From: Ignavibacteria bacterium
GTDB lineage: Bacteria; Bacteroidota; Ignavibacteria; Ignavibacteriales; Melioribacteraceae
Length of the DNA stretch: 36,512 nucleotides
Reading direction: 5' to 3'
NCBI GenBank assembly: GCA_012719345.1
Contig: JAAYAN010000176.1
Span: forward strand, 1 to 36,512
Shown here: in pieces, positions 14,938 to 32,228 of the stretch
Layout: each line of letters starts with the position of its first letter
How positions within the stretch are numbered: the first letter of the stretch is position 1
Made by a program: the position numbers and the translations under genes
The notes under the pieces: model-generated
The model's database searches: none
Told to the model about the DNA's origin: nothing
What the model saw: only the letters and a program-made list of their open reading frames with translations

Positions 14938-16074
14938 ATGAAAAAAATAATTACACTTTTTGGAATCGTGCTTGTTTTATTTTTATCGAGTTGCAGCAAA
15001 GACAGCGGCAACACCCCAGAAGCAGAAGACACATCCAACACAGATATTCCAGCTAACCCCTCAAACATTACTGTTCCGGAACCGACAATTAATAACATAC
15101 AGCCTACGGCAAACATAACTCCGGCTGCAAATAACCCGGGAAGAATTCAAGTTAACTTAACCGGATTAATCAATCCTGCAACACAAAACCCTATTAACCT
15201 TTTTTATAACGCAGCAAATCCAGGTGCATCTAATATTTTTATAACTGAAGACGGAGTTGTTAAAGGACTGAAAGTTACAAAAGTAAGTACCGGAAATGTA
15301 TTGAATGCAGATGTTGTATTTACAGTTGATAATTCCGGAAGTATGGACGAAGAAGCAGATTCTGTTGCTGCAAGTATTACAAAATTTGCAGCTTACTTGC
15401 AGGCAAGCGGGTTAAATGTCCGTTTTGCAGTTGTAGGTTATGATGTTTACGGTGAGGTAGCCGGAGGTGTTAATTTTACATCTGCAGAGCAGATTGACCA
15501 TTACTTAAATAAACGTACAAGTTATTATGGATATACTGTTTCCGGTACAAATAGAACAGTAGGCTTCTTTGGCAGCGACAGTGCAACAATAGAAAACAAA
15601 GCAAACGGTTATGCCAGCGAAGTTTCTGATGAAAATGGTGTTGTAGCTGTTTTATTTGCCGACGCAAATTATAACTGGAGAGCCGGCGCTCAGAGAATTT
15701 TTATAAACTTTACAGATGAACCAACCTTTACAGGAACTAACTATTATTGGAATACAGCAAAACTTATTTCAACAATAGGCGGAAAAGCTACAGTGCATAC
15801 AGTTTTTAGTGAAGACACTACGTATTACAGCAGCTACTGGGATGAATCCGCAGAAAGACCTTGGGAAATGAGCAAAGGTACCGGAGGTACGATTAAGTTT
15901 ATTGATTCTTATGCTACCGGCCTCGATCTAACAAATCTTCCAGTTGCAGGTGCCCTTTCAAACAGTTATTTGATTGAATACACTGCCGGCTCAACAGGCA
16001 AATCGCATACTGTAATAATTACAATTATTGAAAGCAGTGCCGATGGCAAGCGAGAGTATACAATAAGTTATTAA
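14938..16074 (+). CDS. Lipoprotein with von Willebrand factor A (vWA) domain
   Basis: The start at 14938 is fixed by TTAGGAG eight bases upstream. The signal peptide ends in a lipobox (FLSSC, Cys at residue 19), followed by a Ser/Asp/Thr/Pro-rich linker to about residue 65. The vWA domain covers about residues 115-360 and carries a complete MIDAS DxSxS motif (VDNSGSMDEEADS at about 130). A later Asp-rich strand (FINFTDEPTF) may give the further metal ligand. Such vWA lipoproteins bind ligands through a divalent cation and serve in adhesion or surface complexes in Bacteroidota. The C-terminal YTAGSTGKSHTVIITI part looks like a final beta sandwich. It is monocistronic, with a terminator 20 bases downstream. 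No partner is adjacent. Confidence 0.85.
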   Translation: MKKIITLFGIVLVLFLSSCSKDSGNTPEAEDTSNTDIPANPSNITVPEPTINNIQPTANITPAANNPGRIQVNLTGLINPATQNPINLFYNAANPGASNIFITEDGVVKGLKVTKVSTGNVLNADVVFTVDNSGSMDEEADSVAASITKFAAYLQASGLNVRFAVVGYDVYGEVAGGVNFTSAEQIDHYLNKRTSYYGYTVSGTNRTVGFFGSDSATIENKANGYASEVSDENGVVAVLFADANYNWRAGAQRIFINFTDEPTFTGTNYYWNTAKLISTIGGKATVHTVFSEDTTYYSSYWDESAERPWEMSKGTGGTIKFIDSYATGLDLTNLPVAGALSNSYLIEYTAGSTGKSHTVIITIIESSADGKREYTISY

Positions 16075-16095
16075 AGTTTATATTCTTGAAAGTAA

Positions 16096-16132
16096 AAAAA
16101 GGCTGAGTACAAAATTATTCAGCCTTTTTTTT
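16096..16132 (+). terminator. Intrinsic terminator after the vWA lipoprotein
   Basis: GGCTGA (16101-16106) pairs with TCAGCC (16119-16124); flanking A and T runs extend the stem, which ends in eight T. It is placed just after the stop at 16074. Confidence 0.85.
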
Positions 16133-16146
16133 ATTTGAATTTTATA

Positions 16147-16196
16147 TGCCGGATGAACCCCCGTTTCAAATCGGGACGCACTAACAGGATGCTGAA
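16147..16196 (-). repeat. tRNA-Pro-derived fragment at the 3' end of the GIY-YIG ORF
   Basis: On the minus strand GTTAGTGCGTCCCGAT (16185-16170) matches the D-loop/anticodon-arm part of the degenerate tRNA-Pro copy at 16551-16616 (GTTAGCGCGTCCCGAT) at 15 of 16 positions, followed by a related partial palindrome. The flanking CAGC and CCGG also fit the same tRNA register. The stop codon of the GIY-YIG ORF is the TAG inside this fragment, and its last residues (SASC) are encoded by it. Acceptor and T-arms are lost, so it is not a functional tRNA. Confidence 0.6.
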
Positions 16197-16432
16197 ATCA
16201 AATCGTTTATATACTTTTTTGATTTCATTCTCTTGATTTTCATTTCAAAATTTACAGCTTCGGTTGAATTCGGAAATGATTTGACATAAACCAGTTCCCA
16301 CTGACCGCCGTTTCGGGTTGATTTTGTTTGTCCTGAATTATGTTCTTTTAGTCTTCTTTCTAAATTGTTGGTATGCCCGATATAATATTTACCGGTTTTT
16401 TTACTTTGAATTATATAAGTGTAAAATTCCAT
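16181..16432 (-). CDS. Small GIY-YIG endonuclease-family protein
   Basis: The 83-residue protein is one GIY-YIG domain: YTYIIQSKKTGKYYIGHTNN carries the two signature strands (YTY and YIG), followed by the catalytic Arg in LERRLKEHN and a Glu (NSTEAVNFEMKIKR) of the usual C-terminal helix. The family (UPF0213/COG2827 type) is related to UvrC nuclease and homing endonuclease domains, with no proven role for the stand-alone form. Its start codon lies two bases beyond the 3' end of tRNA-Pro(CGG) on the same strand, leaving no room for a usual promoter or ribosome site, so it must be co-transcribed with the tRNA or start elsewhere. Its 3' end lies in a tRNA-derived fragment. The setting suggests a small tRNA-associated mobile or selfish unit. 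Confidence 0.75.
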   Translation of the reverse strand: MEFYTYIIQSKKTGKYYIGHTNNLERRLKEHNSGQTKSTRNGGQWELVYVKSFPNSTEAVNFEMKIKRMKSKKYINDLISASC

Positions 16433-16434
16433 TG

Positions 16435-16509
16435 TCGGGGTGGGGAGATTTGAACTCCCGGCCTCTTCGTCCCGAACGAAGCGCGCTAACCGGGCTGCGC
16501 TACACCCCG
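16435..16509 (-). tRNA. tRNA-Pro(CGG)
   Basis: Acceptor CGGGGTG/CACCCCG pairs fully with discriminator A. The D-arm is GCGC-AGCCCGGTTA-GCGC, the anticodon stem CTTCG/CGAAG holds the loop TTCGGGA with anticodon CGG, and the T-arm is GGGAG-TTCAAAT-CTCCC. Length is 75 bases, without encoded CCA. It appears fully functional. Confidence 0.94.
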
Positions 16510-16550
16510 AATGTTGTAAATTTTTATTCCTTTTCTTTCACTATTTTTAA

Positions 16551-16616
16551 GAGCTTTAAACTCCCGGCCTTCCCGATTCCGATCGGGACGCGCTAACCGG
16601 GCTGCGCTACACCCCG
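16551..16616 (-). pseudogene. Degenerate tRNA-Pro copy with a palindromic anticodon arm
   Basis: The first 26 bases (acceptor 5' strand and D-arm) are identical to the tRNA-Pro(CGG) 42 bases away. The anticodon arm is replaced by the perfect palindrome TCCCGAT-CGGA-ATCGGGA (16588-16571), giving an abnormal loop. The T-arm is mutated (GGGAG-TTTAAAG-CTC) and the acceptor 3' strand is missing. It is a decayed or converted duplicate and cannot fold into a normal tRNA. Confidence 0.75.
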
Positions 16617-16672
16617 AATTTATAGTAAAGAATTGTCCAAATATAATAGAATTTTAAGAATTTCTAAAATAC

Positions 16673-17731
16673 TTACTCTGATTTTTTTAACACTTCTTCT
16701 GCAATTTGCTGAAGAGATAAAACGATATTAACTGCATTTAGTTTTATTGCCTCGCTTGGCATTCCGAATACAACCGATGAAGCTTCATCCTGAGCAATAT
16801 TGTAAGCCCCCGCATTTTTCATATCAAGCATTCCTCTTGCTCCGTCATCTCCGTTTCCGGTAAGTATAACACCAATACTGTTTTTCCCCGCATATCTTGC
16901 TGCAGATCTAAAAAGTATATCAACACTTGGTCTGTGTCTGTTAACAAGGGGTCCTTCCTTAACTTCAACATAATACCGGGCACCGCTTCTTTTCACTAAA
17001 ATATGCTTATTCCCGGGAGCTATTAGAACTTGGCCGCGTAAAATTGAATCGTTATTTTCTGCCTCTTTAATTGAAATTTTACACGTTCTGCTTAGTCTCA
17101 TTACCAAAGGTTTCACAAAATTCTCCGGCATATGCTGGGCAATTACGATACCCGGGGCATCGTGTGAAAACGCTTCAAGAAAAACTCTTAAAGCTTCAAT
17201 CCCTCCGGTAGAAGCCCCAACTACCACTACTTTTTCAGTTGTTTGCAGCATAGCTGTGTCGTTCACAACTTCTTGTTCCGATGAAATTGGCAAAGTAGCT
17301 GCACTTTTTAAATTGTTGTATTTTTTTACATCAACTTTTGAGGCTGCTTTAACAACTTCGCAAATATGAATTTTGGATTCTTCCAAAAATTGTTTTGTAC
17401 CCATTTTGGGTTTAGTGATTATCTCAACAGCTCCATATTCCAACGCTTTCAATGCTGTTTCCGATTCATTTCCTGTTAGACTGGAGCATATAACTACAGG
17501 TACAGGATGATGAGTCATTATTTTTTTCAGAAATGTTATTCCATCCATTTTGGGCATTTCTACATCAAGAGTGATAACATCGGGCACTTGCGTTTTCATT
17601 TTATTCACCGCAATATAGGGGTCAGCGGCTGTGGCAATTACTTCAATTTCCAGATCTGAAGATAATAATTCTGAAAGAGTTTGCCTAACAATGGCTGAAT
17701 CATCAACAATAAGAACTTTAATTTTTTTCAT
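16673..17731 (-). CDS. cheB: CheB, chemotaxis protein-glutamate methylesterase (copy 1)
   Basis: The 352-residue protein has a receiver domain (1-120; acidic pair D10/D11, phospho-acceptor D56 in [12 protein letters not shown]107) and a methylesterase domain (about 165-345) with the triad Ser174 (GASTGG), His200 (AQHMP) and Asp near 296 (GDDGARGM). It removes methyl groups from, and deamidates, receptor glutamates to reset sensitivity. It is the last gene of the cheR-cheD-cheB-cheB run and lies 52 bases after the second CheB, to which it is strongly similar along the whole length (tandem paralogues). The motif LTGNGDDG departs slightly from the more common TGMGxDG. It is likely active. Confidence 0.95.
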
Positions 17732-17783
17732 TCTCTATTCCAATATTTATTTAATTTAAAGAATTTTTAATCAGTATTTTTTG

Positions 17784-18854
17784 TTAAGCCATTTTACATT
17801 CTTTTAAAACTATTGAAGGAATTAAACCAAGAGGAGATATCTTATCAACAGCTCCCCGCTTGATTGCTTCATTAGGCATACCGAATACTACGCAAGTTTT
17901 TTCATCCTGTGCAATATTATAAGCACCTGTAGCTTTCATTTCTTCCATTCCTCTTGCCCCATCATCACCCATACCTGTCATAATAACACCAACAGCATTT
18001 TTCCCTGCATATCTTGCAGCCGATCTGAAAAGTACATCAACCGAAGGACGGTGGCGGCTGACAAGCGGACCGTCTTTAATTTCTAAATAATATCTTGCTC
18101 CGCTTCTTTTAAGCAGTGTATGTTTATTACCGGGCGCAATTAAGGCTCTGCCTCTAATAACAGTATCATTATTTTCGGCTTCTTTTACAGAAAGTTTACA
18201 CAACGAGTCTAATCTTTCTGCAAAAGAACGAGTAAAATTTTCGGGCATATGCTGTACAATAACTATTCCCGGAGAATCCAACGGGAATGATTCGAGGAAA
18301 ACTCGCAATGCTTCAGTACCTCCGGTGGAAGCTCCAACAACTACTACTTTTTCGGTTGTCCGGAGCATAGCTTTATTATTTGCTTTTGCCAAGATTACAT
18401 CTGCCGAAAGTTTAGGAGCTATTTCCGTTTTTTTATTTACAAAATTCTTAAGATTAACCAAAGACGCAGCTTTTATTGTGTCGCAAATATGTATTCGAGA
18501 TTCCTCGAGGAATTTTTTCGTTCCAAGCTGGGGCTTAGTGATAATTTCTACGGCGCCGCTTTCTAAAGCTTTTAGTGCGGTTGTGGAACCTTTATTAGTT
18601 AAGCTTGAACAAATAACTACAGGAATAGGATACTGGCTCATTATTTTTTGGAGAAATGTTATCCCGTCCATTTTTGGCATTTCGATATCAAGAGTTATCA
18701 CATCCGGTATAACTTCTTTTATCTTGTTTGCAGCAATAAAAGGGTCCGAAGCTGAACCAATCACTTCAATTTCATTATCGGACGAAAGAATTTCCGATAA
18801 TGTGTTTCGCACTACTGCCGAATCATCTACTATTAAAACTTTAATTTTTTTCAT
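17784..18854 (-). CDS. cheB: CheB, chemotaxis protein-glutamate methylesterase (copy 2)
   Basis: The 356-residue protein has the same layout as its downstream neighbour: receiver domain with D10/D11 and D56 ([11 protein letters not shown]), then methylesterase domain with GASTGG, VQHMP and [12 protein letters not shown] carrying the catalytic Ser, His and Asp. The inter-domain linker (about 130-168) is the most different part, so each copy could be set to a different activation threshold or receptor. Its start overlaps the cheD 3' end by 14 bases. It deamidates and demethylates MCPs after phosphorylation by CheA. Two complete, apparently intact copies in tandem are uncommon. Confidence 0.95.
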
Positions 18855-20247: not shown

Positions 20248-23200
20248 TCAGAATTTTTCAAATTCCTGATCCAGTTTATCGGAATCTGTTCCCATATCTA
20301 TTGTGAAGCCATTTTGTTTCAGCGAATTTTGATTTGATTTTGATGCTTTTACCGAAGCAGTTGGCTTCCCCTGTTTATTTTTTCCTGCCGGGTTTAAAGC
20401 CTTTACTTCATTATAGCTGTTTGATTTCTGCATTGCTGGTGCAATCCTTTTAATCTGGTGGTTTGACCTTAATTCATCCAATTTGAAATAAGAAACTGCG
20501 CTTTGAAGCTGCTCTGCCTGGCTGGACAATTCCTCGGCAGTAGAAGCCATCTGTTCTGTTGCCGAAGAGTTCTGCTGAATAACCTGATTAAGCTGCTGAA
20601 TTGCACTGTTGATTTGCTCTGCTCCTGTATTCTGCTCGTTGCTTGCAGCTGTAATTTCCTGAACAAGCTCCGATGTTCTTTGAATATCCGGTACAATCTT
20701 TTTGAGTAATTCTCCTGCTTTTTCGGCAACATCAATGCTCGAAGCTGAAAGTTTATTTATTTCGGCAGCGGCTGTCTGGCTTCTTTCTGCAAGTTTTCTT
20801 ACTTCGCTTGCAACAACTGCAAAACCTTTTCCGTGCTCGCCCGCTCTTGCTGCTTCAATTGCTGCATTAAGGGCAAGAAGATTTGTTTGTCTGGCTATTT
20901 CTTCAATTATCGATATTTTACCGGCTATTTCTTTCATTGCATCAACAGTTTCAGCAACAGCTTTACCGCCCTCAATTGCATCTTCGGCAGATTTAAGTGC
21001 TATCTTTTCTGTCTGCTGTGCATTGTCGGTATTTTGCTTTATATTTGCCGCCATTTCTTCCATCGAGGAAGAAGCTTCTTCGGCAGCGGCTGCTTGTTCA
21101 GTAGAACCCTGCGACATTTCTGAAGCGCTTGCGCTCATTTCCTGACTTCCTGTTGCAACATTTTCAGCAGCGTTTTTAACTTCCATAATTATTTCAGCCG
21201 TTGCTTTTACCATTTCAGTAAGTGATTGCATAAGATAATCATTTTCCGAACGTTTTTTAAGTTCAACAGTTAAATCTCCGTTAGCAACCAAGGAAGCTTT
21301 ATCAATTATTAAATTAAGAGCAGCAATAAGTGAATTTATGTTTTCTTTAATCAAGTTAAAATCGCCGTTATATTTATCCTTAATTGTTTCGGGCATATCA
21401 CCTTTTGCTATACGGTCAACGTATTCTGCTGCCATATTCAAAGGACCTATTACAGCATCTAAAGTATCGTTTACACCTTGAACAATCTTTCTGAAATCGC
21501 CTTGATGTTTTGTTGCATCAGCGCGTGTATCAAGTTTCCCTTCGATTGCTGTTTTGGCTAAATCCGATGTATCTTGTACCATCATTTTTAAGGCTTCAAT
21601 CATTTGAATTACTGATGGCACAAGTTTATCATTATCACTTCTTCTTCCAACCTTTTTTAATTCTTCTAAGTCTTTAAGATCTCCATTGCTTATGTTATTT
21701 ACAATGTTGATAACATAAAGAATTCTCTCTCTTACAAGATTTACAGATAATGCTGTTTGATTAAAGATACCTTGATATTTACCATCAACTTTTTGAGTAT
21801 AATCGTTAATTGCCATTTTCTCAAGAACATTGGAAGCCTCAACTAATCCACCCAATCCGTCAATACAATTATTTAGATTATTTTTTATCTCGTTAAAATC
21901 TCCGTTATAATTATCAGTTATTTTGTTTGGAATATCTCCCTTTGCAATTCTATCAATATATTCTGCAGCAACATTCAAAGGTCCTATCACAGCATCCAAA
22001 GTGTCGTTAAAACCTTGTATAATTGCTCTGTAATCGCCTTGATGTTTCATAGCATCGGCACGGATGGCAAGTTTTCCTTCAACAGTAGCCTGCGATAACA
22101 TTTGAGTATCACTAAACAACATTTTTATATTGTTCCTAATGCTGTTCAATCCTTTTGTAAGTATTATTTGTTTCCCAGGAAGATCTCTCATTTCTTTGGA
22201 CAATTTACCTTCGGCATATTCATTTATTAGTCCAATCCCTTCTAAAACAGGAAGTGTAACAGCATCTAAAGCTTCATTGGTTCCAGTTATTAAAGTTTTA
22301 TATATACCTGATAATCCTTCAGTTTTACAGCGTGCCTCTATATCGCCTTCTTTTTGAGACTTATTCATTTCATCAAGGCTATTGACCATTACATTGAGCT
22401 CATCAATACATACATTAAAATTATTCTTAATTTCGTTAAAATCGCCATTGTAATTATCAGTAATTTTATTAGGAATATCTCCCTTAGCTATACGATCAAT
22501 GTATTCTGCTGCTACATTCAACGGACCTATTACAGAATCCAGCGTATCGTTTACGCCTTGAATAATTGCTCTGTAATCACCCTGATGTTTTAATGCATCG
22601 GCGCGAACTGCAAGCTTTCCTTCAACAGTTGCTTTCGATAAAATATTTGCATCTTTTACAAGTTCTTTAATGTTATTTATCATTTTCTGCATCGCATTAA
22701 GCAGTACGCCGAATTCGTCTTTCCGTTCAGTTGAAAGGTCAATATTCAAATCGCCGTTCGAAATTTTTTCTGAACTTTCTGCTGCAATTTTTAACGGATT
22801 TGTTATATTTTTAATCATATAATATGCTGCAGCAATTAAGGCAAGCATCGATATTATTGATATTATAACAATAAGATTTTTTGAATAAGAGTATGTATCT
22901 TCTGCAGCAAAAGCAGCTTGATCTATTAATTCATTCTGGTATTCAATAATTTTATTTGCAGCGTTTGTATATTCGTTTTGAGCACTTCTTACTTTTTCAA
23001 TCAGATATATACCTGCATCATTATATCTTTTTTCATTTATCATTTCTGTAAACGGAGCTCTGGCATCATAATATTTCTGTCTGGCTTCTTCAAGTTCGGC
23101 AATAAGCCTTTTCCCTTCCTCGGTTTTTACTTTACTTTTAAGCGAATCGATATTATCCCCAACAGTTTTTGCACCTTTTTTAATTCTTTCATTATTTTTT

Positions 23201-23442
23201 TCAACCTCGCTGGCAAACTGTGGTAAATCTCTTAATATAACCAAATTACGCATCGAGCGGCTGACATCGCTTATGGCTATAATTATTTCGTTAGCCCATA
23301 CAGTTTTAGGATATTTATCGGTTGTGATGTTTACAGTTTCTTCATTTAAGTTTGCAAGATTAGAAACCGAAATGACAATAATTATAAGCATTGCAACAGA
23401 TATTATTGCATAACTTAGTATTAGTTTAACTCCTATTTTCAT
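20248..23442 (-). CDS. Methyl-accepting chemotaxis receptor with poly-HAMP array
   Basis: The 1064-residue receptor has TM1 (about 8-28), a helical periplasmic sensor of the four-helix-bundle type (about 30-185), TM2 (about 187-208), then a HAMP domain and a long series of HAMP-like modules (about 210-740), and an MCP signalling domain (about 750-1000). The hairpin tip is [20 protein letters not shown], as in all active receptors. Three modules are near-identical at protein level (around 267-345, 449-521 and 629-701; [30 protein letters not shown]). The C-terminus EFEKF fits the loose x-[FYW]-x-x-[FYW] pattern of CheR/CheB tethers. It is the only transmembrane receptor in the island and lies upstream of cheR, separated by a terminator. 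The sensor ligand is unknown. Confidence 0.93.
21340..22641 (-). repeat. Three imperfect intragenic repeats encoding HAMP-like modules
   Basis: Segments at about 22641-22417, 22095-21880 and 21555-21340, spaced about 540 bases, encode the same module (TVEGKLAxRADAxKHQGDYR ... [21 protein letters not shown] ... [10 protein letters not shown]). DNA identity is lower than protein identity (many silent changes), so the repeats are old and under selection. They are not a CRISPR array or an insertion. Confidence 0.8.
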
Positions 23443-23472
23443 TTTATACTCCTATGTTTAGTATTTTCATTT

Positions 23473-24075
23473 TTAGTAAACTATTATGCTTCTGTGAACA
23501 TTTTTTATTGTGTATTTAATTATATCTTCCGGATTTTCGGTAATGGGTTTTCCATGTCCGGGGTAGATTGTCTTAATTTTCAGTCGTGAAAGTTTGTTTA
23601 AGGTTTCCAGGTAATCCGGTGTGTAAGATCCTAAAATATCCCTGACTTGAATTGTTGTATCTCCTGTAAACAGTATTTGTTCTTCCTCGTTATATATGCA
23701 GATTGAATCGGCAGAATGACCCGGTGTGTGGATTATTGTGAATTCTTTATCCGCAAGTTTAATTATTTCTCCGTCTTGTAAAGTCAAATCCGTTAATCCT
23801 ACAGTTTTAATAAACGAATATATTTTGGAATTATATTTTTTCTTTAACGCCATTGCTCCGCCTATATGGTCGAAATGATTATGTGTTAAAATTACTTTAT
23901 CAACAGGGTTTTTTCCAACACCTGTATATGTTTCTTCGATATCTTTAACAATATAATTATCGCTGCCTGTATCAATTACGGCGTTAACGTCCGAAAGTGT
24001 ATTCCATTCACCCAAAAGCATGTAGCTGTTACCGCTGTATAATTGCGGGTTTGTCTTTAAGCTTATAATCTTCAT
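23473..24075 (-). CDS. MBL-fold metallo-hydrolase
   Basis: The 200-residue protein shows the metallo-beta-lactamase motif LTHNHFDHIGG (about residues 63-73), then HTPGHSADSICI (second metal ligand), FTGDTT and YPGHGKPI (later ligands). All zinc-binding positions are present, so it should be an active hydrolase of the glyoxalase II/MBL superfamily; the substrate cannot be read. Its start overlaps the short CheR-like gene as ATGA, so the two are translationally coupled inside the chemotaxis operon. This position suggests a role in signalling, for example turning over a methylated or small-molecule product, but that is inference. Confidence 0.85.
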   Translation of the reverse strand: MKIISLKTNPQLYSGNSYMLLGEWNTLSDVNAVIDTGSDNYIVKDIEETYTGVGKNPVDKVILTHNHFDHIGGAMALKKKYNSKIYSFIKTVGLTDLTLQDGEIIKLADKEFTIIHTPGHSADSICIYNEEEQILFTGDTTIQVRDILGSYTPDYLETLNKLSRLKIKTIYPGHGKPITENPEDIIKYTIKNVHRSIIVY

Positions 24076-24683
24076 ATTTCAATTTTCCTGTATAGTTGAG
24101 CATCGGAAACTACTTGTTGAAACATATGAGATAATTCTTCGGGCATTTTCTGAGTATGTTCCGAAACAAATAAACCGCCGGGAGAAAGCGATTTATGGAA
24201 CATTTTAATTACTTCAATTCTTTCATTTTGCTGGAAATGTAAAAGCACATTTTTGCATAAAATTAAACTGAACCCGTCACCAATAGAATTGAGCGATAAA
24301 AGATTGTGTTTTTGAAATTGGACTCTGTCCCTGATAAGATTTATAAGCTGAAAAGCTTCCGGCTTTGTTTCAGCCTTTTTGAAATATTTATTAAAAATTT
24401 CTTTAGGAATTCTTTTAGTTTCTTCGTCTGAATAAACAGCATCTTTTATAATATTTCCGAATTGCTCGCTTTCATCAATATCTGTGGCTGTTATATATAA
24501 ATTCTTAAATGAGAAACTGCCCATTTTTTCAGCCAGCAGAATAGCCATGGTAAAAGGTTCGGGACCCATTGCACAGCCGGCATCCCAAATTCTTATTCTG
24601 CTCCGTCCTGTAACTTCGGGAACAAGCACATTTACTGCATGCTCAAGCGTGTATAAATCTCTGAAGAAAAATGTAAAGGCCAT
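24072..24683 (-). CDS. Short CheR-like methyltransferase lacking the N-terminal domain
   Basis: The 203-residue protein begins directly with MAFTFFFRDLYTLEHA, which corresponds to the FYR motif region of CheR, followed by the SAM loop IWDAGCAMGPEPFTMAILLA, ATDIDE and FSLILCKNVLLHFQ. The N-terminal helical domain of CheR is missing, which in CheR helps place the receptor. The GxSTGEEPY motif is changed to GCAMGPEPF. It is a complete-looking short family member, not a truncation: the start is clean and the next gene overlaps it. It may methylate a different substrate from the receptors. It lies between cheW and the MBL gene. Confidence 0.85.
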   Translation of the reverse strand: MAFTFFFRDLYTLEHAVNVLVPEVTGRSRIRIWDAGCAMGPEPFTMAILLAEKMGSFSFKNLYITATDIDESEQFGNIIKDAVYSDEETKRIPKEIFNKYFKKAETKPEAFQLINLIRDRVQFQKHNLLSLNSIGDGFSLILCKNVLLHFQQNERIEVIKMFHKSLSPGGLFVSEHTQKMPEELSHMFQQVVSDAQLYRKIEI

Positions 24684-24714
24684 ATTTACTCAATTTTGAA
24701 TTCTTAATTTTTAA

Positions 24715-25242
24715 TTATGAATTATTTGATTGCGTTTCGGAAGTTCCAGATAATTCGCTGCTTCCAGCTTCCTGAAATACCTCCAGTTCTTCTGAAGAGA
24801 ATATTTTATCGATATCGAGTATCATTATAAAATTTTCATCGCGTTTACCCATTCCCATAATAAAATTTGCTTTATATCTGTTGCCTATGTTCGGAGCCGG
24901 CTCAATTTGATGAGGTTCTATATCAAATACTTCCTGAACTGAATCTGCCAGTGCGCCTATCACTATTTTTTCACCCTCAATCGATATTTCCAGAACAATA
25001 ATGCAGGTATCAATAGTGCGTTCGGTTTTGCTTAAGCCGAATTTCATACGTAAATCTATAACAGGTACCACGCTTCCTCGTAAGTTTATTACTCCGCTCA
25101 TAAAATCGGGCACTCTTGGAATTTTTGTAATTGTTGTGAATTCCAAAACTTCGTGGACTTTAGCAACATCAACTGCAAATATTTCCTCATCCAGGTTGAA
25201 AGACAAATAAGGCTTTGTTTCTGTGATTGCAGGTATACTCAT
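24715..25242 (-). CDS. cheW: CheW, receptor-kinase coupling protein
   Basis: The 175-residue protein carries the CheW fold: YLSFNLDEEIFAVDVAKVHE, then IPRVPDFMSGVINLRGSVVP (the family's RG-containing signature), IDLRMKFGL and IVIGALADSVQEVFDI. It joins CheA to MCP tips in the chemosensory array. A short Ser/Thr/Glu-rich tail (SSEELEVFQEAGSSELSGTS) extends beyond the domain. It follows the second receiver gene by 26 bases. Confidence 0.95.
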   Translation of the reverse strand: MSIPAITETKPYLSFNLDEEIFAVDVAKVHEVLEFTTITKIPRVPDFMSGVINLRGSVVPVIDLRMKFGLSKTERTIDTCIIVLEISIEGEKIVIGALADSVQEVFDIEPHQIEPAPNIGNRYKANFIMGMGKRDENFIMILDIDKIFSSEELEVFQEAGSSELSGTSETQSNNS

Positions 25243-25268
25243 TTGAGTTCTCCTTTTATATTACTTAA

Positions 25269-25682
25269 TCAAATTTCGTTATTCGGTAATTTTAGTCCCA
25301 ATTTTTCAATTGTTTCCCAAAATTTTTGTTTATCAAACGGTTTAACAACGTAGGCATCGGCACCGGATTTATAATATGATTCAACTACATTTTTAGGATC
25401 TCCCAAAGCTGTAATCATCATTATTTTCACTTCTTCCGAGCTCTTTAATCCCATAAGCTTCTCTTGTTCCCTTATGGCTTTTACGGATTCCTTACCATCC
25501 ATTAAAGGCATCATTATATCCATGCAAATAAGGTCGTAAGGTTCTTTTTCAATCCATGCCTGAAGAAATAACCGAATTGCTTCTTCTCCGTTAACAGCCT
25601 GATCTGTTTTTCCGGTTTTCGAAAGCATGTATTTTAGTACTTGTCGTATTGAATACTCATCATCTACTATAAGAGTTTTCAT
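25269..25682 (-). CDS. Single-domain response regulator (CheY-like)
   Basis: The 137-residue protein is one receiver domain with acidic pocket D7/D8, phospho-acceptor D55 (CMDIMMP), switch Thr (MMITALG) and Lys (VVKPFDKQ). No output domain is present. A small insertion (IREQEKLMGLKSSEEV) lies before the fourth strand. It starts inside the cheA stop (ATGA) and precedes cheW, so it is likely a CheA target. It differs from the other CheY in the operon, so one may act as phosphate sink or have a distinct target. Confidence 0.9.
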   Translation of the reverse strand: MKTLIVDDEYSIRQVLKYMLSKTGKTDQAVNGEEAIRLFLQAWIEKEPYDLICMDIMMPLMDGKESVKAIREQEKLMGLKSSEEVKIMMITALGDPKNVVESYYKSGADAYVVKPFDKQKFWETIEKLGLKLPNNEI

Positions 25683-27781
25683 TGTAATCTCCCGTAATTG
25701 TTTACAGAATCATTTTCTTCCCACTCAATCAATTTCAGCAAATCAAGAATAAGCGCAAGAGTTCCGTCGCCTAAAATTGTTGCCCCTGAAATCTCTTTTA
25801 TATTTTTATATACTTTTCCTAAAGATTTAATTACAGTCTGGTGTTCTCCGATTACCTGGTCAACAATAAAACCTATTCTCCTTTCGTTTACCTCTGTAAT
25901 AACAACCTGCTGTATTTCGGGTACTTGCCCGTCAATATTAAATTTTTCTCGGATATTAATATATGGCACTAAACTTCCCCTTACATTTGCCATTTTTCTT
26001 CCGCCCGATTTCTTAATTTCATCTTTTGTAAGCTCAACACATTCTTTAACTGTTGAAAGCGGAAATATGTAATAGCTGCTGGAAATCTTAACTAAAAGTC
26101 CTTCAATTATTGCTAAAGTTAAGGGGATGCGAAGAGTAATTACTGTACCTTTGTCTGCCTCACTTTTAATATCGAGCGATCCGCGAAGATTTTCGATTGC
26201 TTTGATAACTACGTCTGTACCTACTCCTCTTCCGCTGATATTTGTTATATTCTCGGCTGTGGAAAATCCAGGTTTTGTTATCAGTTGGAAAATTTCATTT
26301 TCCGTTAATTCAGCATCTTTGGAAATAATTCCTTTATCAACAGCTTTCTTTTTAATTTTTTCAGGATTTAATCCTGCACCGTCGTCGCTTACTTTTATCA
26401 AAACATCACCGCCCGAGTGTACTGCGCTCAATTTAATAACGCCCCGTGTCGATTTACCTTTTTTTCGTCTTTCTTCAGGCATTTCAATTCCATGATCTAT
26501 ACAGTTCCTAATTAAATGAACAAGCGGTTCATTTAATTTATCTATCACAGTTTTATCAAGTTCAGTTTCTGCTCCTTCCGTCTGAAGTTCTACCATTTTC
26601 CCTAATTCATTCGATAAATCCCTTACTAACCGCGAAAAATTAGCAAAGGTATTTCCTATCGGCATCATTCTTATTCCCATTGCATTATCGCGCAAATCTG
26701 TGGTCAATCTTTCAACTTCTTCGGAAATTAATGTTAAATCGTGCAGATTGTATTTTGCTGAAATCTGTGTAAGCCGAGATTGAACAGTTACAAGTTCGCC
26801 TACTAGATCAACAAGACGGTCAAGTTTTTCGCTGGAAACTTTAAGGTTTGATCCTGCAGCAGAATTTGATTTATTCTTTTCCTTTTTAGATTTATTTACT
26901 TCTGTCTCTTTTTCAGCAGCCGATTGCTGTATTTCATTTTTCTCGGTGATAGCGCAATCGCTTTGTTTTCTAATTTTACTTATGCAGTTTTCAATATCGG
27001 AAATGTTTTTATTGGACAAGCTGAAAACACATTCACATAGTTCTTCAAATTTAACATCCGGCACATTTTCTTCTTTTTCTGCTATTTTCTCAAATCTCAG
27101 TTCACACTGGTCTTCAACAAAAATAAAAACATCTCTAATCTCATTTTCTGTTCGGTCAGTTCTTAAAATAATACTCCATTCAGCATAGCAATATTCGGGA
27201 TTAAACTCATCCGGATTTATCTTACTATTTATTTCGCCAAAAATAATTGCCGCACCCATTCCTTTTAATTCTTCCAAAAGACATAAAGGATTAGTTCCGG
27301 TAAGAAAAATATTTTGTTCCGGTTTAAAGAATATATTTATAAGTTTTTCATTCGAAATCTCCTTAGCAATTTCTTCGTTATTCTTTTCAATCTCAGTTTC
27401 ACAATACTCTTTTACCATTTTGCGAAAACTGTTAACTATCTGGATTGCCTTAATTTCATCTTCAGCAGAAGTCTGTTCAGTATTTTTAAGAAAAATTTTA
27501 ATAATATCGCAAGATTGTAAAGTAAGATTTATAAGTTCTTTTGTTATTTTTATTTTCCCGTCTCTTACAAAATCGAAGACCGTTTCTATTTCGTGCGTAA
27601 AACGGGCAATATCCTCAAACCCGAACATCGCTCCCGAGCCCTTTATAGTATGCAAAGCACGAAATGCTCTGTTAATAAGATCAGTGTCTTCGGGAGATAT
27701 CTCAAGCTCGAGGAGTGAACTTTCCAATTCTGAAAGCAATTCTTCGGCTTCTGCTATATACGCTTCACTGTGAATATCCAT
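25679..27781 (-). CDS. cheA: CheA, chemotaxis histidine kinase
   Basis: The 700-residue protein has an HPt (P1) domain with the phospho-acceptor His44 (ALHTIKGSGAMFGF), a middle region (about 150-240) resembling a CheY-binding P2-type domain, the dimerisation helices (about 315-375, LDRLVDLVGELVTVQSRL), an HATPase (P4, about 380-560) with N box LIRNCIDHGIEMP, D-x-G loop DDGAGLNPEKI and ISGRGVGTDVV, and a C-terminal CheW-like P5 domain (about 560-690). It autophosphorylates and passes phosphate to CheY and CheB. It lies between the two receiver genes, 14 bases after the CheY gene. Confidence 0.96.
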   Translation of the reverse strand: MDIHSEAYIAEAEELLSELESSLLELEISPEDTDLINRAFRALHTIKGSGAMFGFEDIARFTHEIETVFDFVRDGKIKITKELINLTLQSCDIIKIFLKNTEQTSAEDEIKAIQIVNSFRKMVKEYCETEIEKNNEEIAKEISNEKLINIFFKPEQNIFLTGTNPLCLLEELKGMGAAIIFGEINSKINPDEFNPEYCYAEWSIILRTDRTENEIRDVFIFVEDQCELRFEKIAEKEENVPDVKFEELCECVFSLSNKNISDIENCISKIRKQSDCAITEKNEIQQSAAEKETEVNKSKKEKNKSNSAAGSNLKVSSEKLDRLVDLVGELVTVQSRLTQISAKYNLHDLTLISEEVERLTTDLRDNAMGIRMMPIGNTFANFSRLVRDLSNELGKMVELQTEGAETELDKTVIDKLNEPLVHLIRNCIDHGIEMPEERRKKGKSTRGVIKLSAVHSGGDVLIKVSDDGAGLNPEKIKKKAVDKGIISKDAELTENEIFQLITKPGFSTAENITNISGRGVGTDVVIKAIENLRGSLDIKSEADKGTVITLRIPLTLAIIEGLLVKISSSYYIFPLSTVKECVELTKDEIKKSGGRKMANVRGSLVPYINIREKFNIDGQVPEIQQVVITEVNERRIGFIVDQVIGEHQTVIKSLGKVYKNIKEISGATILGDGTLALILDLLKLIEWEENDSVNNYGRLQ

Positions 27782-27795
27782 AAGTACTCTTTATT

Positions 27796-28164
27796 TTAAG
27801 AACCCAATATTTTCTTTGTTACTTCCACCAGCTGTTCGGGACGAAAAGGTTTAACAATCCAGCCGGTTGCTCCGGCTTGTTTGCCTTGCATTTTTTTATC
27901 ATTCTGAGATTCGGTTGTTATCATAATTATTGGCAGAAATTTATTTGCCGTGCTGCTTCTTATATGCTTTATCAGCTGTATTCCGTCAACAAACGGCATA
28001 TTTAAATCGGTAAAAACCAGGTTTACAATATTGCTTTCTAATTTTGTTATAGCGTCTCTTCCGTCGGTTGCTTCAATTACTGAATATCCTGCATCTTCAA
28101 GCGTAAATCTTATCATCTGCCTTACACTTGCCGAATCGTCAACTGTCAAGATTACTTTTTTCAT
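27796..28164 (-). CDS. cheY: CheY, chemotaxis response regulator
   Basis: The 122-residue protein is one receiver domain very close to classical CheY: D9/D10, D53 in VFTDLNMPFVDG, switch Thr in MITTESQ and Lys in IVKPFRPEQ. It lies 8 bases after the STAS gene and 14 before cheA. This makes it the best candidate for the motor- or output-binding regulator of the pathway, though no flagellar or pilus genes are visible. Confidence 0.94.
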   Translation of the reverse strand: MKKVILTVDDSASVRQMIRFTLEDAGYSVIEATDGRDAITKLESNIVNLVFTDLNMPFVDGIQLIKHIRSSTANKFLPIIMITTESQNDKKMQGKQAGATGWIVKPFRPEQLVEVTKKILGS

Positions 28165-28172
28165 AAAAACCT

Positions 28173-28472
28173 TTATAATTTAGTTAATGATTCAAGCTGA
28201 TTTTCAAAACCTGCTTGGGATATTGTTTCGGATAGAACCGGACTATTACCTGCATTGATTATCAATTTTTTATTATTCTTCTTAAAGTATAAATCTGCAT
28301 AATAAACAAGCTGCAAAAAGGATACATCTATCAAGTCGGCATTTTCAATATTTAAATGTATCTCATTTATTTCGGGTAAAACCGTTTGCAGCTGCTTATT
28401 AATTTCTTCTGCTCTGCTTATTGTGAGCTGCCCTTCTAAGTTTATTGTAATCTTTGTTTCTTTGTTTTTCAT
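28173..28472 (-). CDS. STAS-domain protein
   Basis: The 99-residue protein shows the STAS pattern: ITINLEGQLTISRAEEINKQ, LNIENADLIDVSFLQLVYYA (the position of the conserved Ser/Thr in the SpoIIAA fold) and KLIINAGNSPVLSETISQAG. The Ser in DVSFLQ sits where STAS proteins of the anti-anti-sigma type are phosphorylated. Small STAS proteins next to cheA occur in several chemotaxis operons; their role is not established. It lies between the soluble MCP-like gene and cheY. Confidence 0.82.
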   Translation of the reverse strand: MKNKETKITINLEGQLTISRAEEINKQLQTVLPEINEIHLNIENADLIDVSFLQLVYYADLYFKKNNKKLIINAGNSPVLSETISQAGFENQLESLTKL

Positions 28473-28480
28473 TTTATTTC

Positions 28481-30271
28481 CTAAAAAAACTCTATATTGC
28501 TTTCGTTTGATTCTGTATCGTTATCATTTATATGCTCTTTATAATTGACGCTATTTCCGTTTTTAGTATAGAACGATTTATGAATATCTCTCTCGGATTT
28601 CATCGAATAATTTTTTTCGAGAAAATTAAATGCTTTGTTTTCCCCCGTCAATTTCAGGTTGGCATTTTTTCCTGTCTGGCTTATAACTTCCTTCATTATT
28701 TCTTCAACTGCATTTAACGAATAATTAAATAATTCTTCAATTCTCAGGTTTCCAAGCAATTTTGATATTTCAGTACTAAGCTCTTTAACTTCGAAATTAA
28801 GATTTTGATTTATTATTTTTATGCTCGAGTTTACATCTTCGGCTTTACCAGTAAGTCTGTCCAGAACAAGCGTCATCTCATCAAGTTCTTTTGTGTTTTT
28901 TTCTGTTTCATTCGAAATCCCTTTTCTTAAGGATTGAGATATTTCGGTAATTCCTAAGATTGTTTCGTCGATATTTTTTATTTGCTCGGCTGTATCAATT
29001 GAAAGTTCCCTTATCGAACTCGCCAAAACCGATAATGCAGCTCCGCGGCTTCCCAGTTTTGCTGTTTTAACAATTGCGTTTAGTGAAATCAGTTCAATTT
29101 CAAGTCCAGCCATTTTAATATCATTCAGAAGTGAAGAAATTTTTTCAATCGTATCGGCACTGGAACTTACAGCATCCACAAGTTCTTTATTTGTCTGCAA
29201 ATTTTCTTTTAGCGAAAGATTTACCGTTTTTATTTTTTGCTGAATCTCTGTTAAAACTGTAGAATTCTGATTCCCTGTAATTCCGGTAATCGACTGCGAA
29301 AATGAAATAAAATCAGTAACATCTTGCTGGAGACTGCCCAATCCGTTCTTTATTTCCGAAGAAGCTTTCCGGATACTCTCGCGTGTTTGAAAAAGCTGGT
29401 TCAATTGAAGGCGCATCATTTCATTTATTACAGATGCTGATTCAACTATTTTTTCCTGATTTGGTTCTTCCAAATTTTGGTATCTGTCTGCAAGCTCTGT
29501 ATAAGCAGATTGAATATGTTCAATCTGCTGCCTTGTAATGTCGTGGAATTGAATTGCGGTTACAATTTTTCCGGCTTGTTTACTTATGATTTCCGATTTT
29601 CCAGGAATCATTTCAGCAATTTGAGCCGATTCCTGCTTCTTTTCGATAAGCTGTAAAAGTCCTTCTTCAACTTTCTTTATTATTTCATCTTTATTCGAAT
29701 TCCTTTCACAAATAACCTTATTTACTTTTTTTAAAGTATCTTCAATCATTTTATCGAGCTGAAGAGTAAGTTTAAAAGTTATATCCAGCTTACTTCTTAT
29801 AACTTCCGAAAGTTTTGTTACTTCCTCGGCAAGAATGTTAAATTCTTTGTTATCCGAATTAAGGCTTGCATCTTCAATTCGTATCGATATTCCGAGAATA
29901 TTTAAAAGTTTCACGCTTTTTTTGAATCCTTCGAGCGGTGAATAAATATCGCTTATATTTTTACGAATCTGCAAAAGTGTAGAATTGGCATTTGCAGTCA
30001 GTCCGTCAGTTTCGGCAGAATATTTTTCGAGATTTATTAAAAACAGGTTCAAGTTTTTTATTGTTTCTGTTATATCGTTACCGGAAAGTAATTCGGATAA
30101 TTGCAAAGAAATTCCTGGAATATCCTTTGATTTATTATAAAATTTTCTCAGATATTCGCCTGTTTCCAAAAATTCACTTTCAGAAATGCTGTTAAGTTTT
30201 CTTAATTCTTCATTTGCACTTAGAATCAAGCTTATCCAGTTTTCTATATTTTTCTGTTCGGCAGAATTCAA
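28481..30271 (-). CDS. Soluble MCP-like coiled-coil protein with altered signalling tip
   Basis: The 596-residue protein has no membrane segment or signal peptide and is almost all coiled coil. At about residues 385-420 it holds DIKMAGLEIELISLNAIVKT, then AKLGSRGAALSVLASSIREL. This aligns with the hairpin tip of MCP signalling domains ([16 protein letters not shown]...GFAVVA) but with key changes (IVKTAKLG in place of IEAARAGE). An earlier part (about 215-260, IAEMIPGKSEIISKQAGKIV, FHDITRQQIEHIQSAYTEL) resembles CheZ-like or cytoplasmic-receptor helices. It may be a soluble receptor or an adaptor, or possibly a phosphatase-like regulator. It begins the chemotaxis run and is 8 bases before the STAS gene. 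Confidence 0.65.
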   Translation of the reverse strand: MNSAEQKNIENWISLILSANEELRKLNSISESEFLETGEYLRKFYNKSKDIPGISLQLSELLSGNDITETIKNLNLFLINLEKYSAETDGLTANANSTLLQIRKNISDIYSPLEGFKKSVKLLNILGISIRIEDASLNSDNKEFNILAEEVTKLSEVIRSKLDITFKLTLQLDKMIEDTLKKVNKVICERNSNKDEIIKKVEEGLLQLIEKKQESAQIAEMIPGKSEIISKQAGKIVTAIQFHDITRQQIEHIQSAYTELADRYQNLEEPNQEKIVESASVINEMMRLQLNQLFQTRESIRKASSEIKNGLGSLQQDVTDFISFSQSITGITGNQNSTVLTEIQQKIKTVNLSLKENLQTNKELVDAVSSSADTIEKISSLLNDIKMAGLEIELISLNAIVKTAKLGSRGAALSVLASSIRELSIDTAEQIKNIDETILGITEISQSLRKGISNETEKNTKELDEMTLVLDRLTGKAEDVNSSIKIINQNLNFEVKELSTEISKLLGNLRIEELFNYSLNAVEEIMKEVISQTGKNANLKLTGENKAFNFLEKNYSMKSERDIHKSFYTKNGNSVNYKEHINDNDTESNESNIEFF

Positions 30272-30289
30272 ATTTTTACCATCTTTTTA

Positions 30290-31348
30290 TTAAGAAATAA
30301 TTGGAAACGAAAGTACTATTATTACATTTCTCTCGATACTGCATTCTATTTTTATTATTCCGTGGCAAAGACTCATAATTTTTTTCACAATTGCCAAACC
30401 AAGTCCGTTACCCTGCTGCTGAATTTTTTCTCTGCCGTGCTGAACAAACGGGACAATATCATTTCCGTTTTTTACCGGGAAATCTATTTTACTTTTATTT
30501 GTAACAGTCAGATTATAAAAACCATCCGCTATTGCAGCTTCTATATTAATTTTCTCTCCAAATTCCGAAAATTTTAAGGCATTTTCAATTAATTCCGAAA
30601 TGCAAAACTTGAAATATTCTTTGTTAATTTTCAGATAGGTTTCATCAATTTGCAAAGTATTTATATTGGCAGAATCGAATTTCCCAAAAACATTATTGAA
30701 TATTTCGGAAACCGGATATGCTTTATCCTGAAGAATATTATCCTTTTCGGTTTTAACCGTTATTTCGGAAAATATTATGAATTTTTCAATTCGGTTATAA
30801 AGTCTTAACCCCGATTCTTCAACAAGTTTTAACATTTCGATAACTTCATTTTGTTTAAAAGAATCGAATTCGGTTAATAGCATCTGCGTAAAACCTATTA
30901 TAGAAACAAGCGGGGTACGAAGCTCGTGAGGAATATAAAAGGAAATATTTGAAGCAATTTCGTCAATTTTCGCATTTCTTTTTTTGCTTTTTTCAAGCCG
31001 TATTTTAACAGCGCTCAGCAAATCTTTTGCTCTGAATGGTTTGATTATATAATCATCAGCCCCCTTATTCATTCCTATACGGATATCATTATAATCAGCT
31101 TTGGCGGTAAGGTAAATAAAAGGAATATACCCCGAATCGTTTTGACTTATTTTTTCCATTAATTGATAGCCGTCCACTTCCGGCATCATAATATCCGAGA
31201 TAATAAGATCGGGTGTTTTTGTTTTTAGAATATCGATTGCCTGATTGCCGTTTGAAGCGCTTAAAACCGAATAACCGCTGTTCGACAGCAAATCTATTAA
31301 ACCGCTTCTTACCGAAATTTCATCTTCTACAACTAAAATTGTTTCCAT
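30290..31348 (-). CDS. Receiver-histidine kinase protein (REC-HisKA-HATPase)
   Basis: The 352-residue protein starts with a receiver domain (D9, phospho-acceptor D52 in IISDIMMPEVDG, K103), followed by the HisKA phospho-accepting helix with the H box FYIPHELRTPLVSIIGFTQM (His near 141) and an HATPase with N box ELIENALKFSEF and G box GNGLGLAIVKKIM. This REC-first layout lets a partner phosphorylate it and change kinase activity. It has no membrane helix. It follows the LytTR regulator by about 120 bases and precedes the MCP-like gene by 18, so it may belong to the chemotaxis transcript. Confidence 0.9.
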   Translation of the reverse strand: METILVVEDEISVRSGLIDLLSNSGYSVLSASNGNQAIDILKTKTPDLIISDIMMPEVDGYQLMEKISQNDSGYIPFIYLTAKADYNDIRIGMNKGADDYIIKPFRAKDLLSAVKIRLEKSKKRNAKIDEIASNISFYIPHELRTPLVSIIGFTQMLLTEFDSFKQNEVIEMLKLVEESGLRLYNRIEKFIIFSEITVKTEKDNILQDKAYPVSEIFNNVFGKFDSANINTLQIDETYLKINKEYFKFCISELIENALKFSEFGEKINIEAAIADGFYNLTVTNKSKIDFPVKNGNDIVPFVQHGREKIQQQGNGLGLAIVKKIMSLCHGIIKIECSIERNVIIVLSFPIIS

Positions 31349-31469
31349 TTGAACCTGAAATAAAATAATTACAAAAGTATTTTCGAAATTGTATTCAGGT
31401 ATTAAAAAGATATTAAATGAATGGCGTTTTTTAGAACTTGACGGTTTGTTTTTGCAGTAAACGGTTGTT

Positions 31470-32228
31470 TCAAGCTGATAATTTTTCTTTTATTTTTGAA
31501 AGATAGCGGCGGCTGGATATAAGAGTTTCGGGATAATTTTGAATTTTTATAAAAAAATTACCTTTACAGCCTTTTTCAATGCTGCTGATTTTATTGATGT
31601 TAACAAGGTATGATCTGTGAATTCTTAAAAATGCTGAATTGGGAAGTATTTTTTCCCAATCCTTTAACACACGTCTTACAAGCATTGGTTTTTTAGAATC
31701 GGTAAACACATTTGAATATTCGCCTTCGGCTATTATGCAGTTAATGCTGTTGAAAGAAATTATTTGAGTTGTATTATTATATTTCAGAAGAATTTTATCT
31801 TCAATATTTTTTTGCTTATTACCAAGTGTGTTGTTTTTATCTGTTTTATTAAGTTTCCTGTATTTAGAAAGTCGTGTTTCAACTGCATTAATCAATTCCG
31901 AAGCCTTATAAGGTTTTGTTATATAATCGTCAGCACCCAAAGTCATTCCTTTTCTGAAATCTTCGGGATTTGATTTTGAAGTAAGAAAAATAAACGGAAT
32001 TCCAGAAGAATTGGAATTATTAATCTGCTCTATCACATTATAACCGTCAACACCAGGCATCATTATATCGCAAATAATTAAGTCTGGTTTTATTTCTTTA
32101 GAAAGCGTTATGCCTTCCCGCCCGTCTGCAGTAGTAAAAACCAGGTAACCGTAATTTGTAAGCAACTCAAACAAGTTGGTTCGGATGCTGTATTCATCTT
32201 CGATAATAAGTATTTTTTCTTTTTTCAT
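31470..32228 (-). CDS. LytTR-family response regulator
   Basis: The 252-residue protein has a receiver domain (acidic pocket E10/D11, phospho-acceptor D54 in IICDIMMPGVDG, Lys in ITKPYKASELI) and a C-terminal LytTR DNA-binding domain (about 150-250: IISFNSINCIIAEGEYSNVF, SAFLRIHRSYLVNINKISSI). LytTR proteins bind DNA through beta strands. Its receiver is notably similar to that of the neighbouring REC-histidine kinase, so they may be related by duplication. It is probably phosphorylated by the large PAS kinase upstream. Confidence 0.92.
   Translation of the reverse strand: MKKEKILIIEDEYSIRTNLFELLTNYGYLVFTTADGREGITLSKEIKPDLIICDIMMPGVDGYNVIEQINNSNSSGIPFIFLTSKSNPEDFRKGMTLGADDYITKPYKASELINAVETRLSKYRKLNKTDKNNTLGNKQKNIEDKILLKYNNTTQIISFNSINCIIAEGEYSNVFTDSKKPMLVRRVLKDWEKILPNSAFLRIHRSYLVNINKISSIEKGCKGNFFIKIQNYPETLISSRRYLSKIKEKLSA

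Follow-up and report, generated by a model that had tools for sequence, protein, structure and literature searches.

The tRNA-Pro locus

The window, that is the whole stretch of 36,512 nucleotides analysed here, carries on its minus strand a hairpin-bearing pseudo-tRNA-Pro, then an intact tRNA-Pro(CGG), an ORF of 83 aa encoding a GIY-YIG protein and a degenerate hairpin-bearing fragment. The features, read along the minus strand, are:

16640-16668, minus: promoter-like match (9/12, a consensus match only), upstream of the 5′ pseudo-tRNA
16551-16616, minus: 5′ pseudo-tRNA-Pro, covering tRNA positions 1-65, with a hairpin replacing the anticodon arm
16571-16588, no strand: perfect palindrome TCCCGATCGGAATCGGGA (TCCCGAT and ATCGGGA around CGGA), in place of the anticodon arm of the 5′ pseudo-tRNA
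16510-16550, minus: spacer between pseudo-tRNA and intact tRNA, from the coordinates of the two
16434-16509, minus: intact tRNA-Pro(CGG) (ARAGORN; Rfam RF00005, 66.1 bits)
16181-16432, minus: GIY-YIG ORF, 83 aa, its ATG one base past the tRNA-Pro end
about 16149-16194, minus: degenerate pseudo-tRNA-Pro on the 3′ side, with a decayed hairpin at about 16159-16176
16094-16131, no strand (listed on the plus strand): terminator-like hairpin beyond the element, before a convergent ORF (14938-16074)

An intact tRNA-Pro(CGG), a GIY-YIG ORF directly behind its 3′ end and a degenerate tRNA-Pro on the other side had all been named in a sequence-only reading of this DNA, and each is borne out. The 5′ pseudo-tRNA-Pro is 83% identical to the intact gene (E 1.9e-12), and these two sequences are the only matches to the tRNA-Pro(CGG) DNA in the genome. 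Against the Rfam tRNA model the pseudo-copy scores 18.7 bits, short of the gathering score of 29, which over positions 15900-16900 is reached by the intact tRNA alone. When the pseudo-tRNA is folded as RNA the hairpin forms, though the overall fold is no better than that of shuffled sequences (43/200 as good). We read this copy as the displaced native gene.

The same reading had a tRNA-Pro-like fragment supply the stop codon of the ORF. The stop codon is indeed there: TAG (16181-16183) reads as part of the GTTAG of a tRNA D-arm in the 3′ fragment. However, direct likeness of the fragment to the intact tRNA is not significant (score 17, equalled by 194 of 2000 shuffles). We accept the fragment as tRNA-derived only because it matches the 5′ pseudo-tRNA, hairpin included (score 56-61, against a maximum of 44 elsewhere in the scan of the window), and because its equivalents are well preserved in three relatives (L112, L114 and L115).

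It had further been proposed that the ORF is expressed as the 3′ trailer of the tRNA transcript. The single base between the two in the window fits this, but in L065 and L215 a terminator-like hairpin, identified by eye, stands between tRNA and ORF. Promoter-like matches in the stretch around 16640-16668 number 11, compared with a shuffle mean of 3.0. The one terminator-like hairpin found at 16094-16131 compares with a shuffle mean of 0.6; from its A and T runs, we read it as probably used on the minus strand.

Signalling genes neighbour the element in the window (stretches 16673-18854 and 20248-36292). Two CheB-like response regulators stand side by side at 16673-17731 and 17784-18854. A chemoreceptor of 1064 aa that matches HAMP_2 is encoded at 20248-23442, and a multi-PAS kinase at 32330-36292.

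The GIY-YIG protein

The ORF matches the Pfam GIY-YIG family PF01541 with an E value of 8.1e-19 and 68.1 bits (cut-off 22.6). Residues S10, Y17, R27, H31, A59, E63 and K67 are invariant among 33 family members, and Y6 and G19 are kept in at least 90% of these 33 rows; Y17, R27, E63, Y6 and G19 are what we take to be the catalytic positions of GIY-YIG. On this basis the ORF is assigned to the GIY-YIG nuclease superfamily. Pfam places no DNA-binding domain in the ORF beyond GIY-YIG. TIGR01453, the group I intron endonuclease type, reaches only 24.7 bits against a cut-off of 56.05, over residues 6-40 only, and in NCBIfam and PHROGs the GIY-YIG matches to the ORF are partial or sub-threshold.

The closest solved sequences are PDB 1zg2 (E 1.4e-11) and 1ywl (E 1.8e-5), with SLX1 chains next. 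These nearest relatives of known structure are UPF0213 or single-domain GIY-YIG proteins, related to SLX1, for which we know of no linkage to tRNA; members lacking a tRNA also exist within the unit's own family. The dN/dS of the window ORF against its relative in L115 is 0.25, and lies between 0.07 and 0.40 in those pairs with finite, unsaturated dS, most pairs being saturated at synonymous sites. As judged from these ratios, the ORF is shown to be under purifying selection.

Recurrence beside tRNA genes

Family matches at E ≤ 1e-6 occur in at least 34 of the 38 genomes searched, and family matches are present in 193 of 296 sampled genomes of the window's phylum (the window's own genome being included in both counts). 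Linkage to tRNA was checked in 143 ORF clusters. The first sample comprised 80 loci (the window, L002, 60 fetched regions and 18 genome_contigs loci) and yielded 83 clusters, 64 of which have a called same-strand tRNA within 700 bases. Of the 19 that lack one, six contain a stretch resembling a tRNA with a score of 42-85 (34 random stretches reach 26.8 at most), and the others do not stand out. The second sample comprised 60 regions hand-picked from a match list that showed no tRNAs, 58 of them from other families of the phylum and two from the same family. Here, a same-strand tRNA lies within 700 bases in 55 of 60, and pseudo-copies are found in 53; the clusters without a tRNA are L207, L222, L223, L240 and L243. 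Over both samples, 119 of 143 clusters have a called same-strand tRNA within 700 bases, with 25 ARAGORN isoacceptor labels, although some of the calls behind these labels are pseudo-tRNAs themselves (L090 certainly).

In 50 long loci, tRNA density falls from 1.5/kb at 0-300 bases from the ORFs to 0.29/kb at 300-1000 bases, 0.03/kb at 1-3 kb and 0.008/kb at 3-9 kb; the six genomes counted hold 40-44 tRNA matches each. The expectation that family ORFs would lie beside tRNA genes in relatives is therefore upheld, the density next to the ORFs being far above that of the same regions farther out. The 18 genome_contigs loci are nearly all metagenome-assembled, with titles including Marinimicrobia, Omnitrophota, Patescibacteria, Azambacteria and Firestonebacteria, and in 15 of them a tRNA on the same strand adjoins the ORF. 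The sequence-only reading had missed the hairpin and the tandem arrays, as well as the fact that the layout recurs at other tRNA genes.

Contig C249 of the window's own genome carries a second copy behind a tRNA-Asp; at 47% identity it is the next best relative. By eye, the last codons of this ORF overlap a piece of tRNA-Asp in which TCCCGATTAATCGGGA takes the place of the T-arm, and the stop codon sits in the loop of that hairpin. The genome has three further matches, two of them weaker (E 1.8e-6 and 1.2e-4) and one at chance level, and no tRNA is present in the stretches fetched around these. The tie of the ORF to tRNA loci thus holds for most clusters but not for every family member. Clades without a nearby tRNA are L067/L068/L091/L101/L104/L105, L089/L100 and L222/L223/L243, and possibly represent a separate function or the ancestral state. 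Other ORFs lacking a tRNA label (L088, L095, L122, L207 and L240) are placed among labelled ones in the tree.

As to a phage or viral vehicle, two single-protein scans confirmed no relative in viral contigs. The matches to phage records (11, best E 5e-3) and to plasmid records (7, best E 7e-7) are weak.

Pseudo-tRNAs, hairpins and tandem arrays

Among the tRNA-linked clusters of the first sample, 45 have their tRNA upstream of the ORFs, 18 have it downstream, and in one it is internal to the cluster. Remnants over both samples (119 clusters) are 3′ only in 44, 5′ only in 28, on both sides in 33 and not clear on either in 14. In the arrays read, a remnant keeps its outer end, on the leader or trailer side, and is truncated at the end towards the ORF. 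A pseudo-copy scoring at least 30 is present in 59 of the 64 tRNA-linked clusters of the first sample, and a pseudo-copy with an arm replaced or interrupted by a non-native hairpin in 54 of the 64 (92 of 107 distinct copies). By an automatic hairpin criterion, the second sample gives 40 of 55 tRNA-linked clusters, equivalent to 40 of the 52 with scored copies, and 61 of 92 copies with repeats counted. That tRNA-derived fragments flank the ORFs, as had been noticed in the window, therefore extends to both samples.

Stems of at least 7 pairs are found in 67 of 107 pseudo-copies; the corresponding counts are 88 of 2140 for random segments and 8 of 59 for intact tRNAs. By midpoint, the hairpins of the first sample fall in the anticodon arm (47), the T arm (44), the D arm (28) and the variable region (3). 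Those of 3′ remnants lie in the T or anticodon arm, and those of 5′ remnants mostly in the D or anticodon arm; a few inserts of the second sample border on the acceptor stem (L218, L225). In the replaced arm of tRNA-Pro the pairing is kept while the letters vary, with 86 of 114 standard pairs compared with a maximum of 77 in 1000 re-dealings, a count that includes six unrelated pattern hits. Inserts in the T or anticodon loop are often two adjacent mini-hairpins with stems of 3-4 bp and loops of 3 bases (L061, L080, L082, L210, L228 and others), which would make the tRNA arm a branched structure.

The tandem period is about 305 to 450 bases among the matches listed, and the repeat unit measures about 300-450 bases when the arrays read are included. 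With fragments counted, 92 of 143 clusters hold one ORF match and 51 hold two to six. In a set of seven arrays, each contains one intact tRNA. A number of units are seen at contig ends (L086, L118, L119, L122 and others), which would be the outcome if short-read assemblies broke at tandem arrays; the copies counted there would then be lower bounds.

Palindromes of the form TCCCGAT N2-8 ATCGGGA occur 28 times in the window's own genome, TCCCGATCGGAATCGGGA among them, compared with none for a reversed control pattern. Fifteen dispersed sites were read (L008-L022) and have no tRNA within their 1.5-3 kb stretches. Five of them (L010, L012, L014, L017 and L021) share a longer flank, resembling a short repeat element.

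Empty and occupied sites

Occupied and empty alleles of one syntenic site exist in three genera, the comparison being between species, not strains. In occupied genomes the native leader and/or 3′ flank runs into a displaced, truncated tRNA copy, with an intact tRNA and at least one GIY-YIG ORF between or beside the tRNA remains. At tRNA-Ala in the genus of G268, the flank was matched in 6 of 61 genomes (query included). L250 and L254 are empty, with native leader, tRNA and native 3′ flank. L215 starts with the native leader abutting a 5′ remnant, then a spacer and a complete tRNA identical to that of L250 (75/75 bases); after the tRNA come the terminator-like hairpin, two ORFs each with a 3′ remnant behind it, and the native flank. 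This is the clearest case, with the intact tRNA inside the insert. L251 is also occupied: its ORF match is in two pieces, and its 5′ remnant is an almost whole tRNA in which the anticodon arm has been replaced. The 5′ remnant of L253 is short, and in L252 no tRNA was seen in the stretch. The earlier suggestion that partial tRNA copies are left behind thus stands as regards the flanking fragments, but these are better taken for native remains capped by palindromes.

At tRNA-Arg(TCG) in the genus of G066, 35 of 40 genomes were matched. Twenty loci were read: one is occupied (the query, L255), one has a 5′ fragment only, and in 18 both ORF and pseudo-copy are absent at the tRNA. Three of the latter have another partial GIY-YIG match 0.8-1.2 kb off on the opposite strand. 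At tRNA-Leu(CAA) in the genus of G144 (36 of 40 genomes matched), the 20 loci read divide into 15 without a tRNA in the stretch, one occupied (L275), one with a 5′ fragment and three empty (L276, L277 and L279). For tRNA-Pro in relatives, 29 loci were read: the ORF is present in six (one partial), remnants only in two and neither in 20, with one lacking a called tRNA-Pro. Beside a putative yajQ, tRNA-Pro is empty in L132, L142 and L157, followed by the unit in L112, L114 and L115 and preceded by it in L149. Empty sites, proposed earlier as a check, are thus found in related species at the tRNA-Ala, tRNA-Arg, tRNA-Leu and tRNA-Pro loci. No empty site was found for the window itself, since four of its neighbouring proteins gave no hits when compared with the tRNA-Pro loci of relatives.

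A comparison by eye of tRNA-Pro loci, 13 of them occupied and 22 either empty or with remnants only, showed no recoded intact tRNA. Nor was one found at occupied tRNA-Ala and tRNA-Arg loci, where all 75 bases equal those of the empty L250 or L261.

ORF lineages and isoacceptors

A first tree was built from 78 ORFs (5 of 83 clusters, shorter than 55 residues, being excluded), with 66 isoacceptor-labelled rows. Isoacceptor labels require 24 changes on it, against 44-53 in 500 shuffles. Genome labels are random, requiring 65 changes against a shuffle mean of 64.7 when each genome_contigs locus is counted as its own genome. A second tree took in 138 of 143 clusters with 121 labelled rows, and gave 45 changes for isoacceptor (at least 85 in 500 shuffles) and 30 for amino acid (at least 77 in shuffles). 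The side on which the tRNA lies required 19 changes; the shuffles averaged 25.4, and 1 in 500 was as low. The effect is weak with amino acid held fixed (31 of 500 as low). The trees rest on 74 columns, with many forks open, and the shuffles ignore relatedness. In these trees, ORF lineages tend to follow the tRNA isoacceptor, not the genome. The idea that the unit spreads between tRNA genes accordingly needs narrowing: proximity to tRNAs, flanking fragments and empty sites agree with it, but the unit does not seem to move freely between different tRNAs, its lineages tending to keep to one isoacceptor.

Mechanism and alternative explanations

The anatomy of the unit and its recurrence are well supported. 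On balance we think it probable, though far from certain, that we are dealing with a small mobile element of the homing type, dedicated to a single tRNA gene, for which homing by cleavage would be the most likely mechanism. The GIY-YIG protein would cut an empty tRNA gene in or near the arm that bears the hairpin, and repair from a unit-carrying donor would copy the unit in, with the tRNA pieces as homology arms. The unit would bring a whole tRNA, or the missing half, so that the tRNA is not lost, and the hairpin would break the target that the displaced copy otherwise keeps. Unequal recombination between the repeated tRNA pieces could then produce tandem arrays. Insertion by cut and repair would explain why native copies are displaced and capped by a hairpin, why a replacement tRNA is present, why ORF lineages are coupled to the isoacceptor and how the arrays arise.

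This model gives no account of why the unrecoded intact tRNA is spared. The displaced copies are interrupted by hairpins while the intact tRNA of occupied loci keeps its unrecoded sequence, and therefore a nuclease with its site inside the tRNA should still cut it. SegB of phage T6 is reported to cut inside tRNA genes, with a motif RAWTSGAAC in 23 of 83 sites, and to drive tandem amplification of a tRNA-segB segment through recombination (PMC13096335). The reverse complement of this motif, GTTCSAWTY, would by our reading be the tRNA T-loop. Of 55 3′ remnants, 13 retain a slightly relaxed form of the T-loop motif, which the cognate intact tRNA has for 53 of the 55, so the remnants mostly lose a site of the sort favoured by a SegB-like enzyme. 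When another arm (anticodon or D) bears the hairpin, the T-loop can be intact, so the target would have to differ between lineages.

We also raise, tentatively, the possibility of a natural cleave-and-rescue element. Here, the nuclease would disable the native tRNA gene, leaving a hairpin-marked remnant, and the element would supply the functional tRNA, to which the cell would be addicted; nuclease and tRNA would have co-diversified into an isoacceptor-specific family across the window's phylum and other phyla. Our verdict is that the element would work like a homing gene with a rescue copy.

Long vertical residence could be an alternative origin of the isoacceptor coupling. The GIY-YIG gene would then be a resident, non-mobile gene long fixed beside each tRNA, with local duplication and decay, palindromes entering the dead copies, and isoacceptor clades that are old vertical lineages. 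Clustering by isoacceptor alone is compatible with vertical descent, pseudo-copies resemble the adjoining tRNA, and in L136, L143, L257 and L281 they occur without an ORF. Nevertheless, we consider this unlikely. Neither ORF nor pseudo-copy is present at the tRNA in 18 of 20 loci at one syntenic place, genome labels are random on the tree, and L113, a metagenome-assembled genome titled Marinimicrobia, falls among the tRNA-Pro ORFs. Moreover, the placement of the unit varies, since some genomes have it downstream of tRNA-Pro and another has it upstream, and the outer parts of the pseudo-copies, as read, are near-perfect tRNA sequence, unlike old decay.

The hairpins themselves could be what moves, as in REP/RAYT, if the GIY-YIG enzyme acted on TCCCG..CGGGA-type hairpins and tRNA arms were preferred landing sites. 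We find this rather improbable, since the search of the window's own genome with the ORF matched five contigs and a clear ORF stands beside only the C217 and C249 sites among the 28 palindromes, that on C152 being 0.6 kb from a chance-level ORF match (E 1.8). Arrays beside the same kind of tRNA also carry different types of hairpin, and it is the tRNA that the ORF tree tracks. The idea draws on the TCCCG-type hairpins of most units, on the scattered sites, of which the 15 read have no tRNA in their stretches, and on the tRNA-Pro stems that stay paired as their letters vary. A role in dosage or defence, whereby the nuclease amplifies the tRNA locus and the cell outlasts tRNA-cleaving enzymes, has its precedent in SegB of phage T6 (PMC13096335) and agrees with the clusters holding several ORF matches, fragments counted. 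However, the amplified copies are truncated pseudo-tRNAs, and each of the seven arrays has a single intact tRNA; we regard such a role as very improbable.

Relation to known systems

Returning to the homing-type element, its closest precedent is SegB, a free-standing GIY-YIG homing endonuclease of T-even phages. SegB is a phage protein and the larger of the two, whereas the unit, found in bacterial genomes, encodes a single-domain protein of about 83 aa. In fungal mitochondria, homing genes (such as that of atp6) pair a nuclease gene with a duplicate of part of the invaded gene, but these are protein genes in organelles, with no tRNA and no hairpin marks. Integrative elements and prophages insert at the 3′ ends of tRNA genes, which they restore with a part that they carry; the unit differs in the hairpins of the displaced copy and in sometimes carrying a whole tRNA. 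Its repeat is too short, at about 300-450 bases, for an integrase, and none lies within it: the unit consists of tRNA pieces and one GIY-YIG ORF. In REP/RAYT, a small enzyme gene goes with short palindromes, which occur scattered through the genome as well. Here, by contrast, the enzyme of the unit is a GIY-YIG protein instead of a Y1 transposase, and the flanks are tRNA pieces.

Like the unit, SegB has its nuclease gene beside tRNA genes, but it reportedly has no preference among tRNA isotypes (PMC13096335), whereas the ORF lineages of the unit keep to one isoacceptor. Hairpin-marked pseudo-tRNAs and a replacement tRNA, both features of the unit, go unmentioned for SegB in the sections consulted (PMC13096335). 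We found no description of such a system in the open-access literature, an absence that is weak evidence; the parts available of PMC1564403 do not mention one and those of PMC2864250 have no bearing on one.

If the proposed reading is true, the unit represents a very small, widespread class of bacterial mobile element that lives inside tRNA genes and is tolerable by carrying the tRNA, and a homing gene would thus enter an important gene without an intron or intein. Annotation of tRNAs elsewhere may suffer, as some hairpin-bearing pseudo-tRNAs pass as real in ARAGORN. The program calls the pseudo-tRNA-Pro of L090/L158 (G008) as tRNA-Ser(GGA), and an apparent pseudo-tRNA-Val (L224:3351-3431) as tRNA-Lys(TTT).
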